From an uncultured bacterium (GTDB lineage: Bacteria; Cyanobacteriota; Vampirovibrionia; Gastranaerophilales; Gastranaerophilaceae), in assembly GCA_902774905.1 (NCBI GenBank), contig CACYKF010000004.1, forward strand, positions 37,025-101,024: 64,000 nucleotides of DNA. The letters run 5' to 3'. Made by a program: the position numbers and the translations under genes. The first letter of the stretch is position 1; every line of letters begins with the position of its first letter. Positions 14,217 through 56,490 of this stretch are shown one piece after another. The notes beneath the pieces are model-generated. The model saw nothing but the letters and a program-made list of their open reading frames with translations, did no database searches and was not told the DNA's origin.

Positions 14217-14232
<16 letters not shown>
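13953..14232. repeat. Direct repeat of the tRNA-Tyr 3' end flanking a ~200-bp segment
   Basis: 13953-13991 repeats 14192-14232, with two extra Ts in the second copy. The repeat covers half of the terminator hairpin and the last ~15 nt of tRNA-Tyr. Between them, 13992-14191 has no convincing gene but two hairpins: GAACCAC/GTGGTTC, and GTTTTGCC...GGCAAAAC with an inner TGTGGCA/TGCCACA stem. The layout resembles attachment sites at a tRNA 3' end with almost all of the element lost. Confidence 0.6.
14172..14207 (-). terminator. Terminator of the tRNA operon
   Basis: GACTTC/GAAGTC stem with ATTAA loop; A9 on the left gives the U-tail for the minus-strand tRNA transcript. It lies 10 nt beyond the tRNA-Tyr 3' end. 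Confidence 0.75.
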
Positions 14233-14300
<68 letters not shown>

Positions 14301-14336
14301 TATATTTAATTGTCACTCTCGTTAGGTCTTAAAAAT

Positions 14337-14408
<72 letters not shown>

Positions 14409-14466
14409 CTGTGTTCAGAGTATCTTTTGAAAGAAACATTCTTAATATGTATCCCTTCAAAAGATT

Positions 14467-14539
14467 AGCCGGCAATGGGACTCGAACCTACAACCTACGG
14501 TTTACAAAACCGTTGCTCTGCCAATTGAGCTATGCCGGC
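14467..14539 (-). tRNA. tRNA-Thr (TGT)
   Basis: A 73-nt tRNA. Acceptor GCCGGCA/TGCCGGC, discriminator T. The anticodon stem ACGGT/ACCGT encloses TTTGTAA, anticodon TGT; the T-loop is TTCGAGT. It is the first gene of the cluster, 13 nt downstream of the predicted transcription start. Confidence 0.95.
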
Positions 14540-15563: not shown

Positions 15564-16925
15564 CTATTTTTTCTTTTTAGATTTTGTTTCCTTTTTATTT
15601 TTTTCATTACTTAAAGGTGAAATTTTGTTTATATTATCATATTGCTCTTTTATATATTGATTATTCTTATTTAGATTATAGGCATTTGCGATATATTCTT
15701 TTGCATTTTCCAATGCGCCGGCTCTTTGTAATATCTTATAAATTGCTTCCGAATTATACGAAGCGTACAAATATGCTATTGCATTGGTTTTGTTTAGTTC
15801 AAAATACTGCTTAAAGTATTTAGCCGATTTTTTAAACTCACCATTTACATAAGACTTATAAGCAAATCTTAAATAAACATCCTCCATTGATTCAACACTG
15901 TAGTAATTTTCTTTTGACTGTGTTTCATGAGTTTTACCGATAGTCAAAGATTTTCTGTCGGAGGACAATTTTACGGGCATAACTTCGGAGTTCATAATAT
16001 TATATTTCCCAATTTGTGCCCATTGGTCTTCAATAAAATATTTTCTGTTTTCATAGAAATTTTCTATTCTCTTATTTCCGACAGGATGGTCGCTAAGGTA
16101 TCCGGGGATAACAATATCTGTATTTAAAAATGAAAGCAAGTCAGAAGATTCATCTAAACTGTAGCCTGCTTTGACTGCAAGTTTTGCACCCTCAACATCT
16201 GCGGCATATTCCATGTTTTTACCATCTGTCAGCAGTTGTTGAGATTTTATTGCAAACAATGCTTTTGCGTGAATATCACCTGCTTTGTATAGGTTTTGCA
16301 AATTCATCATTAATCTTGCAATATCCATTTTTCTTTGACTATGCCCCAAAACTGTATGAGCAATCTCATGGCCGATTACTAAAGCCAATGCATCATCATT
16401 GTTATTAAATGAATCATATAAAGATGTACTTATTGCTATATAATTCGGACCTGAGGAATAAGCATTAACATTTTCGGCATCTTTGTATATACCGATACGC
16501 CAATTTATATAATCAAGTTTATTTGCTCTTATTATTCGCTCTGCAATGCGGTAAACTTTGTAGTAATCTTCTCCGTTTGCTTTAGCATCATAACTAAAAA
16601 TTTCACCTTTAAACATTGATTTTTTATATTGAGAATATATTTTATCATCTGCTTTTAATTTTTCCTGATATTTTGCTTCATCAACCTCCTGATAGTCCGA
16701 AAGTTTAAATATTTTAGGGTCTTTTATATAAATATTTTGTTCAGGTTTTGAAGTAAAATAATTAAAATTTTTCTGTATAGCATTTTGATTTGAGAAAAAC
16801 TTTTGAGTTGTATTATACTTTTGTGCATGCTGCATTTCTTTGATTTGCAATTTTGCATAATCACGGGCGACTGCGCAATTAGCGATAAAAATACTTGCAA
16901 GCAGTAAAACAAATATCTTTTTCAT
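15564..16925 (-). CDS. M48-family zinc metallopeptidase with C-terminal TPR-like region
   Basis: A 453-residue exported peptidase. Seen: N-terminal signal (MKKIFVLLLASIFIANCAVA; either a lipoprotein-like Cys17 or ordinary cleavage after AVA), the M48 signature HEIAH at 186-190, and downstream EYAAD at 239-243 giving the third ligand and the usual ExxxD. NAYSSGPNYIAIS upstream is also typical. The C-terminal third has alpha-helical repeat features (AKYFKQYFELNKTNAIAY). This is the BepA/YfgC-like layout, periplasmic quality control, which is inference. AAGGAGT precedes the start. No operon partner. Confidence 0.88.
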   Translation of the reverse strand: MKKIFVLLLASIFIANCAVARDYAKLQIKEMQHAQKYNTTQKFFSNQNAIQKNFNYFTSKPEQNIYIKDPKIFKLSDYQEVDEAKYQEKLKADDKIYSQYKKSMFKGEIFSYDAKANGEDYYKVYRIAERIIRANKLDYINWRIGIYKDAENVNAYSSGPNYIAISTSLYDSFNNNDDALALVIGHEIAHTVLGHSQRKMDIARLMMNLQNLYKAGDIHAKALFAIKSQQLLTDGKNMEYAADVEGAKLAVKAGYSLDESSDLLSFLNTDIVIPGYLSDHPVGNKRIENFYENRKYFIEDQWAQIGKYNIMNSEVMPVKLSSDRKSLTIGKTHETQSKENYYSVESMEDVYLRFAYKSYVNGEFKKSAKYFKQYFELNKTNAIAYLYASYNSEAIYKILQRAGALENAKEYIANAYNLNKNNQYIKEQYDNINKISPLSNEKNKKETKSKKKK

Positions 16926-16994: not shown

Positions 16995-17474
16995 TTACCC
17001 TCTCCATCTGTCGGACAAATAACTCAAAATTGCACCGCCGATTTCTTCATTCGGGTCAAAAGTCTGATTAGGATTATTTGGTTTCATTGAGTTTTGAATA
17101 AGCATTTTACATAACGGTCCAAAAGCATCAGGCACCTGAATTTTACGGTAAATTCCCGCTAAAAATGTCTGAATATTTGGCGACTGAGTTTGATTAAATC
17201 TTGAAAAAACAGGATAGAGTTTGTCAATCCCTTTCGTACCGCTATCAATCATTCTGTCCATAATATAAAGAGTTTCAGTAACCTGTGCTTCATTATTTGA
17301 ATGTTCCAAAATATCTGTCAGATAAGGCAAGGCATTTTCTTTTTGTTTTACAAAATAATCTACTTCGTTTTTATCAAATACACAATAATTTCTGTCTTTT
17401 GTCGGTAATTGAACAGAGGCACAAATATATCTCGGATATGGATTAATATTATATTGAGTAACAGATTGAATCAT
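16995..17474 (-). CDS. Unrecognised protein, third gene of the 17-19.7 kb operon
   Basis: A 159-residue protein without signal peptide or membrane helix. The middle (about 45-125) is helical, with hydrophobic spacing like HEAT or Armadillo repeats (YLTDILEHSNN, LYPVFSRFNQ, PLCKMLIQ). It starts 5 nt after the stop of the 505-residue membrane protein. No family recognised; a soluble partner of the two upstream membrane-linked proteins is likely from synteny only. Confidence 0.65.
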   Translation of the reverse strand: MIQSVTQYNINPYPRYICASVQLPTKDRNYCVFDKNEVDYFVKQKENALPYLTDILEHSNNEAQVTETLYIMDRMIDSGTKGIDKLYPVFSRFNQTQSPNIQTFLAGIYRKIQVPDAFGPLCKMLIQNSMKPNNPNQTFDPNEEIGGAILSYLSDRWRG

Positions 17475-17479
17475 AATTT

Positions 17480-18997
17480 TTACGAATAAACAAACGGCGG
17501 TCCGTTTTTAATTTCAAATAAAATATTTTCTGCCATTGTTTTAAGTTCATCTTTTGTGCGCTTTCCGCTATCGACCTGCTTATAAAATTCTTTAACAAGC
17601 GGATTTATTGCAGAATCTTTTTTGGCTTTAAAGTTTCTCAATTCGGTTGAAACAAGGCGTTTTTGCAAATCAAGTTCAGTCTGTGCATTGATTTTTTTGA
17701 CCTGAACTTCTTTTAGTGCTTCGCCTGACAGTTTACCACCATAGCCTATTGCTGTTATGCCTGTTATTCCGCCAAACAACAAACCAAACTGTGGATTTGA
17801 TGTGTCTAAAAGCCAATTGTAGAAAAATGCTTTGTAATCATCAACAAATGAATTAAATGCAGGTTTTGGAGTTCCGTCACCACCAATATTTGGATTAACC
17901 TTTGTAGTTGAAGTTTCTATTTTTTCAATAACTTTTTTCTCAAAATCTGCTTTTTCTTTATCAGTCCAATTTAATGCCAAAATCTGCTCTTTTACAAACT
18001 CTTTTATTCCTTTTGAATTTTCAATTTCAACAAACATGTGTTCAAGATTTTCCGCATCGGCAGACTTTGTTTCATTAGTCGAAGTTTTTACTATCTGAGA
18101 AATTGCTTTTTTCGTATTTTCAAGACTTTCCTGCAAGTGCATTTTACTTTTTGTAAGGTTTTTGAGTGACAAAAATCCGAGTCCGACAATTCCGACAAGA
18201 GTACCAATGCCTAATAAAATGTTGCCGAAATTATTTACCCCCTTTGCCATCGGCATTTCGCCCTGTGAGGAGGCAAAATTCTCATTAGCACTAAACGCAA
18301 ACTGTGCAAAAGTCTTGCGACCAAACGGAGTATCCGGTTTTTCTTCAGGCGGGTTTAAAAATCCCTCAAATTCTTTTGTGTATTTTGAAAGCATTGAACG
18401 AATTATTTGCATTTTGCCTGAAAATGACTGCGTTTCAACTGCAATCAAATTTTCCTGCAAATTTTTCTGAATATTTGCTTCTTTGCGTTTTACCCAAATA
18501 TCTTTGTAACCGTCAAAAAATGTTTTGCCCATAAATGCCATTGCAGACAGAGTCAATACCCCTGCACCCGCTATAAATGTTTTGCTGTTCGGACTTTGTA
18601 CCATCTGATAGATAACCTGAGAAGTTTCCTTGCTCAAATTAACATTTCTTGTAACCGCAGGAATCCATTTTTCTTTTGCAAGATTTTTTGACGCTTTTGC
18701 ACTGTATCTGACAAAACCCGTAAGACCTGCGATTGCACCCATTACTCCCAATGCAACCGTACTTAAAGGCAAAAGTTTTTTATCGACAATCAGGTTATCT
18801 TTATATAATTGAGCAGGCATGGATGCATCATCAGAAATTATAAAAGTATCTTTCAGATTTGACAATGAAACTTCATTATCTTTGACAAAACTATTGACTA
18901 CAACCCCCTCTCTTGTTGAATTGATGTTGCGTTTTTGGGATTGAGTCATGTTTCTGTGCTGAATCAGTTGTTCGTTTGCAAAAGGATTAATGTTCAT
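17480..18997 (-). CDS. Unrecognised multi-pass membrane protein
   Basis: A 505-residue protein with four hydrophobic segments (about 76-96, 140-158, 256-276, 398-420), each followed by long Lys/Glu-rich helical loops. Its tail is EILFEIKNGPPFVYS. The internal pairing of short membrane anchor plus helical loop repeats twice, suggesting an old duplication. Its start overlaps the upstream gene by 11 nt, so translation is coupled. No family recognised. Similar in general style to the 521- and 252-residue proteins near 49-51 kb. Confidence 0.7.
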   Translation of the reverse strand: MNINPFANEQLIQHRNMTQSQKRNINSTREGVVVNSFVKDNEVSLSNLKDTFIISDDASMPAQLYKDNLIVDKKLLPLSTVALGVMGAIAGLTGFVRYSAKASKNLAKEKWIPAVTRNVNLSKETSQVIYQMVQSPNSKTFIAGAGVLTLSAMAFMGKTFFDGYKDIWVKRKEANIQKNLQENLIAVETQSFSGKMQIIRSMLSKYTKEFEGFLNPPEEKPDTPFGRKTFAQFAFSANENFASSQGEMPMAKGVNNFGNILLGIGTLVGIVGLGFLSLKNLTKSKMHLQESLENTKKAISQIVKTSTNETKSADAENLEHMFVEIENSKGIKEFVKEQILALNWTDKEKADFEKKVIEKIETSTTKVNPNIGGDGTPKPAFNSFVDDYKAFFYNWLLDTSNPQFGLLFGGITGITAIGYGGKLSGEALKEVQVKKINAQTELDLQKRLVSTELRNFKAKKDSAINPLVKEFYKQVDSGKRTKDELKTMAENILFEIKNGPPFVYS

Positions 18998-19670
18998 GTG
19001 CTATCCTTTCTTCTTCACGCTTAAATTTGCGTGAAAGACTATGCAAAAATGTCTTGAGATTAAACGCTTTTTGAGTTTCGTCAATTTTCTTTTCTTCATC
19101 ATCAGTTTCGTCTGCACCAAAAACAAAGAAAATAGATTTGAGTTTTTTCTTGATACCGCCCATAAGATTTGATAATGATTTTGAAACGGCTGCTTTCATT
19201 TCCCCGTAAACTGCCGCCAATTTATCCGCAATATCAACAAATTTTTGTGCGAAATTAGCCATAGCATTTGGTATCTGTGCCATTATATTAACTATTCTTG
19301 CAACAACCTGTGTAAGAACAAAATTCACAGGAGCAGAAATTATTGCAGGCATTGTTTTTGAAATATTTGAGGCAAATTCTAAAATTCTCTGATGAACATT
19401 TTCAAGATTTTTATTAAATTGCACCATAGATTGAATAAAACTTTGCTGATTTGCTTCGGCTCTTTGTCTTGCCGCTTTTTGCGCTCTTAGCATGGCACCT
19501 ATTGCGGCGCATTGGTTATAAGTCATTTCCCCGACATTACGAGGGGTATCTCTTTTTGTCGTAGAATTACCGCCTGCCATTCCACTACATATAGGACATG
19601 CGCCTGCAGGAAGTCCATGCGGACAACTGCCGAGTTTCGGATTATGAATATGCGGTGCTCCTACTGACAT
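18987..19670 (-). CDS. Unrecognised protein with Cys/His-rich N-terminus
   Basis: A 227-residue first gene of the operon. Residues 5-32 carry HIHNPKLGSCPHGLPAG and CPICSG, a Cys/His cluster that could bind a metal. The middle (about 60-175) is a long amphipathic helix region with a hydrophobic stretch at about 108-130, and the tail is highly charged. Its ribosome-binding site AGAGGA (19683-19678) lies inside a terminator-like hairpin, see the leader entry. No known family. Together with the two downstream genes it may form a membrane complex. Confidence 0.7.
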   Translation of the reverse strand: MSVGAPHIHNPKLGSCPHGLPAGACPICSGMAGGNSTTKRDTPRNVGEMTYNQCAAIGAMLRAQKAARQRAEANQQSFIQSMVQFNKNLENVHQRILEFASNISKTMPAIISAPVNFVLTQVVARIVNIMAQIPNAMANFAQKFVDIADKLAAVYGEMKAAVSKSLSNLMGGIKKKLKSIFFVFGADETDDEEKKIDETQKAFNLKTFLHSLSRKFKREEERIAHEH

Positions 19671-19840
19671 TAAAAAATCCTCTCTGAATTTAAAGAGGAC
19701 ACATCATAAGACTTTCATATTATTTTCTCAAACTGTGCGTGAAAAAATAATTATCCCTTGAGTGTTCCGACTTTTACGGCTGCGCCAGCAGTTGAAGATA
19801 TTCACTCCATTTCCTCTTTGTTTCATGATAGTAAAATAAG
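19671..19840 (-). promoter_or_regulatory. Structured 5' leader with terminator/antiterminator switch
   Basis: On the minus strand: AAAGAGGA (19819-19812), a closing pair GAGTG/CACTC (19807-19803 with 19764-19760) enclosing CTGC-TGGC-GCAG (19791-19780) and a CCG...CGG hairpin (19779-19767), a stem at 19751-19741/19729-19719, then TCCTCTTT-AAATTC-AGAGAGGA-T6 ending next to the ATG. The last hairpin both looks like a terminator and hides the ribosome-binding site. AAAGAGGA can pair perfectly with its 5' arm, giving an alternative fold. I do not match it to a known riboswitch class. Confidence 0.6.
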
Positions 19841-55840: not shown

Positions 55841-55911
55841 TAATAAAATAGCGGCAAAAAAAATAAACGGGATTAAACGGGCTAAAGCCCTCACAATGAC
55901 AGATAGGCACC

Positions 55912-56490
55912 ATGACTGAATACAAGCAAATGAAATTGATAAATCCGAATTGGGACCAGCACGGATATATACAGGTTTATACGGGAGATGGAAAAGGTAA
56001 GACTACCGCATCATTGGGACTTGCAATGCGTGCTTTGGGTAGAGATTGGAAAGTTTTGATTGTGATGTTTACAAAAGGCGGAAACAATTACGGCGAACTA
56101 AATTCATTTCGTCAGTTGTCTGATAAAATCGCTGATAATTTGACTATTGTTCAGGCGGGTTTGGATAGAGTAATTTATAAATCAAACGAATGTGAAAAAG
56201 ATCACAAACAAATAAAAAAAGGCTGGAATTTAGTCAAAAAAGCCGTAAAAAACGACGAATATCAATTGATAATTATGGATGAAGCCAATATTGCTATAGA
56301 TATGGGTATTTTGGATGTCGATGAAGTCGTAAAAGTTTTAAAAAGCAAACCTGATGAGATGGAAATTGTTTTGACAGGGCGTAATGCACACCCAAAAATT
56401 GTTGAAATAGCACATCTTGTGTCAAGAATTGAACCTGTTAAACACTATTGGGATAAGGGTGTTCACGCAAGAAAAGGCATTGAGTATTAA
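55912..56490 (+). CDS. cobO: Cob(I)yrinic acid a,c-diamide adenosyltransferase
   Basis: Adds the adenosyl group to cobalamin precursors (BtuR/CobO type). Seen: VYTGDGKGKTTASLGLAMR P-loop, GGNNYGELNSFR, and DEANIAIDMG; VLTGRNAHPKIVEIA is also typical. 192 residues. The region before the ATG is a repeat fragment (GGGCTAAAGCCCTCACAATG), so the start context was partly supplied by a dispersed repeat. No other cobalamin gene is here; salvage is possible. Confidence 0.92.
   Translation: MTEYKQMKLINPNWDQHGYIQVYTGDGKGKTTASLGLAMRALGRDWKVLIVMFTKGGNNYGELNSFRQLSDKIADNLTIVQAGLDRVIYKSNECEKDHKQIKKGWNLVKKAVKNDEYQLIIMDEANIAIDMGILDVDEVVKVLKSKPDEMEIVLTGRNAHPKIVEIAHLVSRIEPVKHYWDKGVHARKGIEY

Follow-up and report, generated by a model that had tools for sequence, protein, structure and literature searches.

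The leader that precedes orf227 in the 64,000-nucleotide stretch of Gastranaerophilales DNA analysed here (the window) could be confirmed by sequence comparison as a member of the class II cobalamin riboswitches, a known class found here with a new target. It very probably controls, most likely as an OFF switch, the operon orf227-orf505-orf159, a judgement that leaves out the function of the operon in corrinoid acquisition. The class membership, the fold, the conservation of the kissing loop and of the antiterminator, and the link to the operon were all established by comparing relatives. The RNA being of a known kind, the value of the finding lies in the regulated target: a cobalamin riboswitch links to B12 an operon without assigned families that is kept across an uncultured gut lineage.

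A reduced class II cobalamin aptamer

A cmscan search of the window gave, at the gathering thresholds, a sole cis-regulatory match, to the AdoCbl-II model RF01689 (positions 19829-19755, minus strand, as all leader and operon features below), with 39.9 bits against a cut-off of 36.5, a margin of 3.4 bits, at an E value of 5e-6 and with an alignment that spans the whole model (1-81 of 81). Ten of the 12 divergent relatives tested were also above this cut-off (38.3 to 50.7 bits), and the 181-nt leader of the window folds more stably than its shuffles (z = -2.42). The first-pass annotation, made from the letters alone, had proposed a structured minus-strand leader at 19671-19840, which is borne out, and had reported no match to cobalamin motifs, which the Rfam search overturns. 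Rfam matches to PyrR, Plastid-atpF and STnc410 were set aside, all being far below their own cut-offs. The PyrR match (22.9 bits against a cut-off of 54) is what would speak for a protein-controlled attenuator, PyrR-like for example, instead of a riboswitch; we regard this as extremely unlikely, given that RF01689 exceeds its own cut-off and that the kissing loop and the P3-P6 covariation described below are specific for cobalamin riboswitches. A literature search of partial coverage found no report on riboswitches of Gastranaerophilales.

The fold supported by the aligned relatives consists of P3, P4, P5 and P6 followed by P13, with a kissing loop between L5 and L13. Among 39 distinct aptamers, 97.9% of the cells of P3 (GAG/CUC), P4, P5, P6 and one tertiary pair were paired, and changes on both sides of a pair were found in 44 cells against 11.1 in shuffles, a value reached by 0 of 500 shuffles; all slid versions of the fold were far worse, and the junction letters of this core are conserved. 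The 5' strand of P3 (GAG, 19816-19814) pairs with 19762-19760 (99.1% paired, with changes on both sides) and is part of AAAGAGGA (19819-19812), the 5' strand of the antiterminator. P4 (19809-19793), formed by TGGAG (19809-19805) and CTTCA (19797-19793), is paired in 99.5% of cells, one of its pairs being A-U in 17, G-C in 17 and G-U in 5 aptamers, and another occurring as U-A or C-G. P5 (19791-19780) has the form CUG(C)/(G)CAG and carries the L5 kissing-loop strand CUGGCG (19788-19783), and P6 (19779-19767) pairs CCG (19779-19777) with CGG (19769-19767). It is followed by J6/3 (AACA) and the 3' strand of P3, CUC (together 19766-19760), where, in the free state, ACAC is able to pair with the GUGU found in the switching strand.

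A long-range tertiary pair, A19792-U19770, is G-C in 20 and A-U in 19 of the 39 aptamers and co-varies perfectly in 104 of 104; it is crossed by P6 and consequently missing from the nested RF01689 structure. A micro-ORF of the form ATG-NAG-TGA within P4 disappears when C-G forms the first pair of P4 and was rejected as a by-product of the aptamer. The leader is thus structured as proposed earlier, but the aptamer fold drawn then, two hairpins closed by GAGTG/CACTC, is wrong. The closing stem is not supported: although 90.8% of its cells are paired, its covariation is not above shuffles and 16 of the 39 aptamers break its outer pair, GAGUG belonging to P4/L4 and CUC pairing with GAG of P3.

Downstream of the core, a P13-like hairpin (19751-19719) presents the loop strand CGCACAG (L13, 19739-19733), in which A19736 is bulged, as the partner of L5. 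All five distinct leaders with CUGGCG in L5, which appear to come from separate lineages, have CGC[A/U]CAG in L13; CUGCCG is accompanied by CGUGCAG in 26 of 28 leaders and GUGCCG by CGAGCA[C/U] in 13 of 15. Because the L13 site was picked as the best-complementary place, weaker L5/L13 classes are no evidence. These paired changes point to an L5-L13 kissing loop, and other corrinoid riboswitches are known to have such loops, bulged ones included (PMC9600662, PMC10653944).

As expected for class II, P6 is followed by a short J6/3 (AACA) and then P3 (19779-19760), with no class I P8-P12 extension; L6 carries short insertions in a few relatives. P3 has only three pairs, and P1 and P2 are absent. 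The outer helix of RF01689 (P2 in the model, its first and last six positions) is not formed, the alignment marking non-pairs there. This helix is peripheral, and since the cut-off is passed without it, the window aptamer can be read as a reduced member of the family. A promoter is predicted at 19856-19828 (-35 TTGACA, 17-nt spacer, -10 TACTAT; 10 of 12 consensus matches), and a TTGAC-box pattern is present in 87 of the 98 distinct related leaders having enough upstream sequence. The start predicted from it, near 19821, lies at the 5' edge of the aptamer and leaves no room for P1/P2, the predicted transcript beginning inside the RF01689 outer helix. It also lies upstream of the structure; a start downstream of it had been named in the first-pass annotation as an observation that would speak against a riboswitch. 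A second promoter-like site (19731-19703) was treated as chance, as its start would fall inside the hairpin arm and it coincides in part with P13 letters that differ between relatives.

In comparison with the original AdoCbl-II/AdoCbl-variant motif (Weinberg et al. 2010, PMC2864571), the leader shares the P3-P6 core, GGAAA, GUGA, GUAAAAGUC and the GGAA of J6/3, but lacks the outer helix and has a P3 of only 3 bp; furthermore, the taxa listed for that motif are marine, whereas the window comes from a rumen and gut lineage and has a new gene target. The source genome contains a second RF01689 copy (contig C26, 5000-5073), which has the same core (48.5 bits) and precedes nrdD (at C26:5472), but this leader differs in its long outer helix AACCAAATAAG/CTTATTGGTTT and in having a platform of another kind near the start codon.

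The switching strand and the hairpin before orf227

No terminator-like site other than the hairpin GTCCTCTTTAAATTCAGAGAGGAT followed by T6 (19700-19672) occurs in the region (shuffle mean 0.2), and the 3' arm of this hairpin, AGAGAGGA, holds the Shine-Dalgarno sequence GAGG (19682-19679) 8 nt before the ATG of orf227, in agreement with the terminator-like hairpin masking the ribosome-binding site that had been described from the letters. The switching strand GUGUCCUCUUU (19702-19692) can pair either with both strands of P3, as an antiterminator, or with the Shine-Dalgarno/terminator arm. AAAGAGGA, near the 5' end of the leader, is the exact complement of the hairpin arm TCCTCTTT (19699-19692). 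The UCCUCU of the switching strand has two possible AGAGGA partners, which lie some 130 nt from each other, in P3 and at the Shine-Dalgarno site. Of 90 distinct leaders, 88 preserve the pairing of AGAGGA from P3 with UCCUCU, so that the paired arms are conserved in relatives; lack of such conservation was the other counter-observation named in the first-pass annotation. The earlier proposal of an antiterminator in a riboswitch-type leader with mutually exclusive pairings is upheld by comparison of about 90 leaders.

Beyond this core, and with partner shuffles that ignore the relatedness of the leaders, the extension of the antiterminator had a mean of 1.91 Watson-Crick pairs against 1.57 in shuffles (0 of 5000 as high), or 2.06 against 1.76 when G-U pairs were included (2 of 5000), and the ACAC/GUGU pairing scored 313 against 304 (0 of 5000), a small effect. 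Some complementarity is expected from the Shine-Dalgarno-like character of AGAGGA, and the conserved arms might reflect nothing but a constitutive terminator together with a ribosome-binding site, without any switching. We consider this reading very improbable, because UCCUCU matches two distant AGAGGA copies in 88 of 90 leaders, because the extension co-varies (CAAGAGG/CCTCTTG, TAAGAGG/CCTCTTA, AAAGAGG/CCTCTTT), and because the aptamer and the kissing loop are conserved as well.

Folding models, which included neither ligand nor kissing loop, gave for the nascent window RNA ending after the UCCUCU arm an antiterminator probability near 1; across 90 leaders the median of this probability was 1.00 and 89 of them reached 0.5 or more, and in the full-length RNAs the probability of the hairpin had a median of 0.94. 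An antiterminator predicted in the nascent RNA and a hairpin predicted in the full-length RNA are what a kinetically controlled switch would be expected to show. For the full window leader, the equilibrium model prefers the hairpin even when no ligand is present, and the OFF-switch model therefore relies on kinetic, co-transcriptional control.

According to the mechanism that we propose, transcription would begin near 19821 and, with no ligand, GUGUCCUCUUU would occupy both P3 strands, AAAGAGGA pairing with UCCUCUUU and ACAC with GUGU, which would block the Shine-Dalgarno/terminator hairpin and allow expression of the operon. Upon binding of a corrinoid, P3 (GAG/CUC) would close and the L5-L13 kissing loop would dock; closure of P3 would release UCCUCU to pair with AGAGGA at the Shine-Dalgarno site, hiding the latter and forming the T6-tailed hairpin just before the ATG, which would stop translation, transcription, or both. 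Ligand binding, the sign of regulation and the choice between termination and translation are inferences. As a single base separates T6 from the ATG, masking of the Shine-Dalgarno sequence and termination are not separable in the window. In one related leader (L061), one can read a terminator that is separate and has a Shine-Dalgarno sequence of its own behind it, and this supports termination in part of the family.

Activating corrinoid riboswitches are known (PMC10653944), and the leader might accordingly be an ON switch turned on by B12, like the corrinoid riboswitch of A. halodurans cobT. Yet the antiterminator of cobT is P13 itself and the P13 of the window does not overlap the hairpin, closure of P3 in the window frees the terminator/Shine-Dalgarno strand, and the sibling targets nrdD, metE and btuB fit repression, all of which makes activation quite improbable. 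An OFF switch thus remains our preferred model.

The minimal P3-P6/P13 layout of the window leader is one that we take to resemble env8. With env8HyCbl of class IIa, as described in PMC10653944, it shares the L5-L13 kissing loop and a P13 coupled to the hairpin of the ribosome-binding site, but the window uses a separate switching strand that pairs with both P3 strands. Similarly, the repressing metE corrinoid riboswitch of P. megaterium (PMC10653944) has the kissing loop and an antiterminator that sequesters the 5' arm of the terminator, but it takes its antiterminator strand from the 3' side of P13, where the window uses P3 of the aptamer. One switching strand that recruits both P3 strands would offer a clean system for studying how binding and expression are coupled in B12 riboswitches. 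In four leaders (L022, L058, L102 and L151) insertions lie between the aptamer and the platform, that of L022 (201-354) consisting of a 59-nt unit repeated 2.6 times.

The operon and its distribution

The three genes orf227 (18987-19670, ATG at 19670, 227 aa), orf505 (17480-18997, 505 aa) and orf159 (16995-17474, 159 aa) overlap, as the first two do, or almost abut. Orf227 has an N-terminal CPHGxPxGxCPxCxG motif, of which C16, P17, H18, G19, G23, C25, P26, C28 and G30 are invariant in 28 sequences, followed by a helical region, and Orf505 is helical with membrane-like segments at residues 78-96 and 260-278. None of the three proteins was assigned a Pfam or NCBIfam family, and a search for relatives of solved structure, carried out for Orf505 and Orf159, found none. 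Comparison of the operon proteins with the BtuB/TonB receptor, BtuC/FecCD and ECF-T/CbiQ gave no meaningful Pfam, NCBIfam or solved-structure match. The structure predictions of Orf505 and Orf227 were of low confidence (mean pLDDT 61 each) and, like the Foldseek search with the Orf505 model (best E 0.085), yielded nothing usable. Weak matches of Orf227 to Pfam EzrA and to a PHROG tape-measure family were rejected, as they look like generic helical similarity. Downstream lies an M48 peptidase gene (15564-16925), which is next to the operon in close relatives (L035 and L062, for instance) and was not found at this place in divergent loci, so that it probably does not belong to the conserved operon. 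Three tRNA genes stand in a row at 14217-14539 of the minus strand.

RF01689 was detected in 57 of 59 related genomes, one to three times each (E 0.1 or better), two copies being present in the source genome. With the N-terminal CPHG..CP motif as marker, the same operon was found behind 49 collected RF01689 loci from several families of the order. Wherever enough sequence was available, the operon loci have orthologues of both orf227 and orf505, and most loci, not all, have orf159. A scan with an Orf505 alignment, one genome per species, retrieved 259 relatives, and among the best 80 loci of these 259, which overlap with the 59 genomes and 49 loci above, both the CPHG gene in front of orf505 and the riboswitch ahead of the operon were found in 80 of 80 Gastranaerophilales loci. 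The leader parses as the aptamer in 79 of them, the remaining one (L114, equal in length to the L022 contig and apparently the same) having an insertion that moves the aptamer further upstream. The named records among the best 80 are Gastranaerophilales or Melainabacteria, with one labelled Muribaculaceae; many of the 80 loci come from rumen or gut MAGs. In a search of 289 genomes of the class, orf505 occurs in 182, all within the order except for one weak match. The operon is essentially limited to one order of gut-dwelling cyanobacterial relatives. In genus g38 of family f1, all four sampled genomes (G240, G263, G266 and G272) are without orf505, possibly a natural loss useful for testing the purpose of the operon.

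Other RF01689 copies precede nrdD, metE, btuB (with a FecCD permease) and cobT, all of which are B12-logical targets. The nrdD products are of the 753-aa class, with nrdG next in L033; metE follows the riboswitch in three loci (L037, L055 and L067), BtuB-like receptor genes in L003/L023 and L027, BtuB-BtuC operons in L059 and L064 (PF00593 and PF01032 matches at those places) and cobT in L083. The nrdD, btuB and btuC assignments were confirmed by family searches, and metE, cobT and nrdG were named from translated N-termini.

Vitamin B12 genes in the genus and a possible role of the operon

Family searches in the 36 genomes of the window's own genus detected no FecCD permease (BtuC), TonB receptor barrel (BtuB), CbiQ (ECF-T) or CbiC, and no MetH cap domain was found in 58 genomes, own genus included. 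Most of the 36 genomes carry BtuR/CobA, NrdJ and NrdD, and this gene content is the pattern of a salvager of corrinoids whose importer is unknown. Weak PF02310 matches are not classical B12 enzymes: two such proteins, of 842 and 430 aa, are radical SAM proteins of DUF2344 and UPF0004, respectively. With NrdJ and BtuR present and importers undetected, a role of the operon in corrinoid acquisition becomes a testable guess, and its genes are candidates for such a role by their regulation only; the operon may serve acquisition or some related B12-responsive function. As for the source of corrinoids in the genus, the operon offers a concrete candidate. The specific idea that orf227-orf505-orf159 constitutes a new B12-repressed acquisition system of Candidatus Gastranaerophilales, in a genus with a B12-dependent ribonucleotide reductase and adenosyltransferases in which the tested BtuB, BtuC, ECF and de novo genes are undetected, is speculative and, in our judgement, rather doubtful. 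Two genomes of family f7 (G041 and G046) have BtuB/BtuC and the operon together, which counts against a simple importer story.

Caution about an acquisition role is also called for by six genomes of the window's own genus (G003, G005, G013, G019, G024 and G027) in which family searches detected neither NrdJ nor BtuR and which keep the riboswitch before the operon (leaders L006, L004, L057, L021, L017 and L022, respectively); four are less than 90% complete and two at least 95%, and none has a second RF01689 match before nrdD. They would have either other corrinoid enzymes or a different ligand need. The latter bears on the proposal that the fold was inherited from a cobalamin riboswitch and now recognizes a ligand other than AdoCbl, be it a different corrinoid form such as MeCbl/HyCbl or some other small molecule. 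These six leaders are above or near the cut-off, class IIa cobalamin switches favour MeCbl/HyCbl over AdoCbl, and J6/3 has the letters AAYR without the UCU motif described for class IIb (PMC11260477), all in line with such a change, even if the junction letters alone do not decide between class IIa and IIb. On the other hand, the core letters of J3/4, P6 and J6/3 are identical to those of nrdD leaders of the same genus, the gene absences come from family searches, and a shift among corrinoid forms would still leave a cobalamin riboswitch; we hold a ligand other than AdoCbl to be unlikely, if well worth considering, and retain the class II cobalamin assignment. The window itself encodes a BtuR/CobO corrinoid adenosyltransferase (55900-56490, plus strand; PF02572, E 1.3e-59), one of two copies in the genome.
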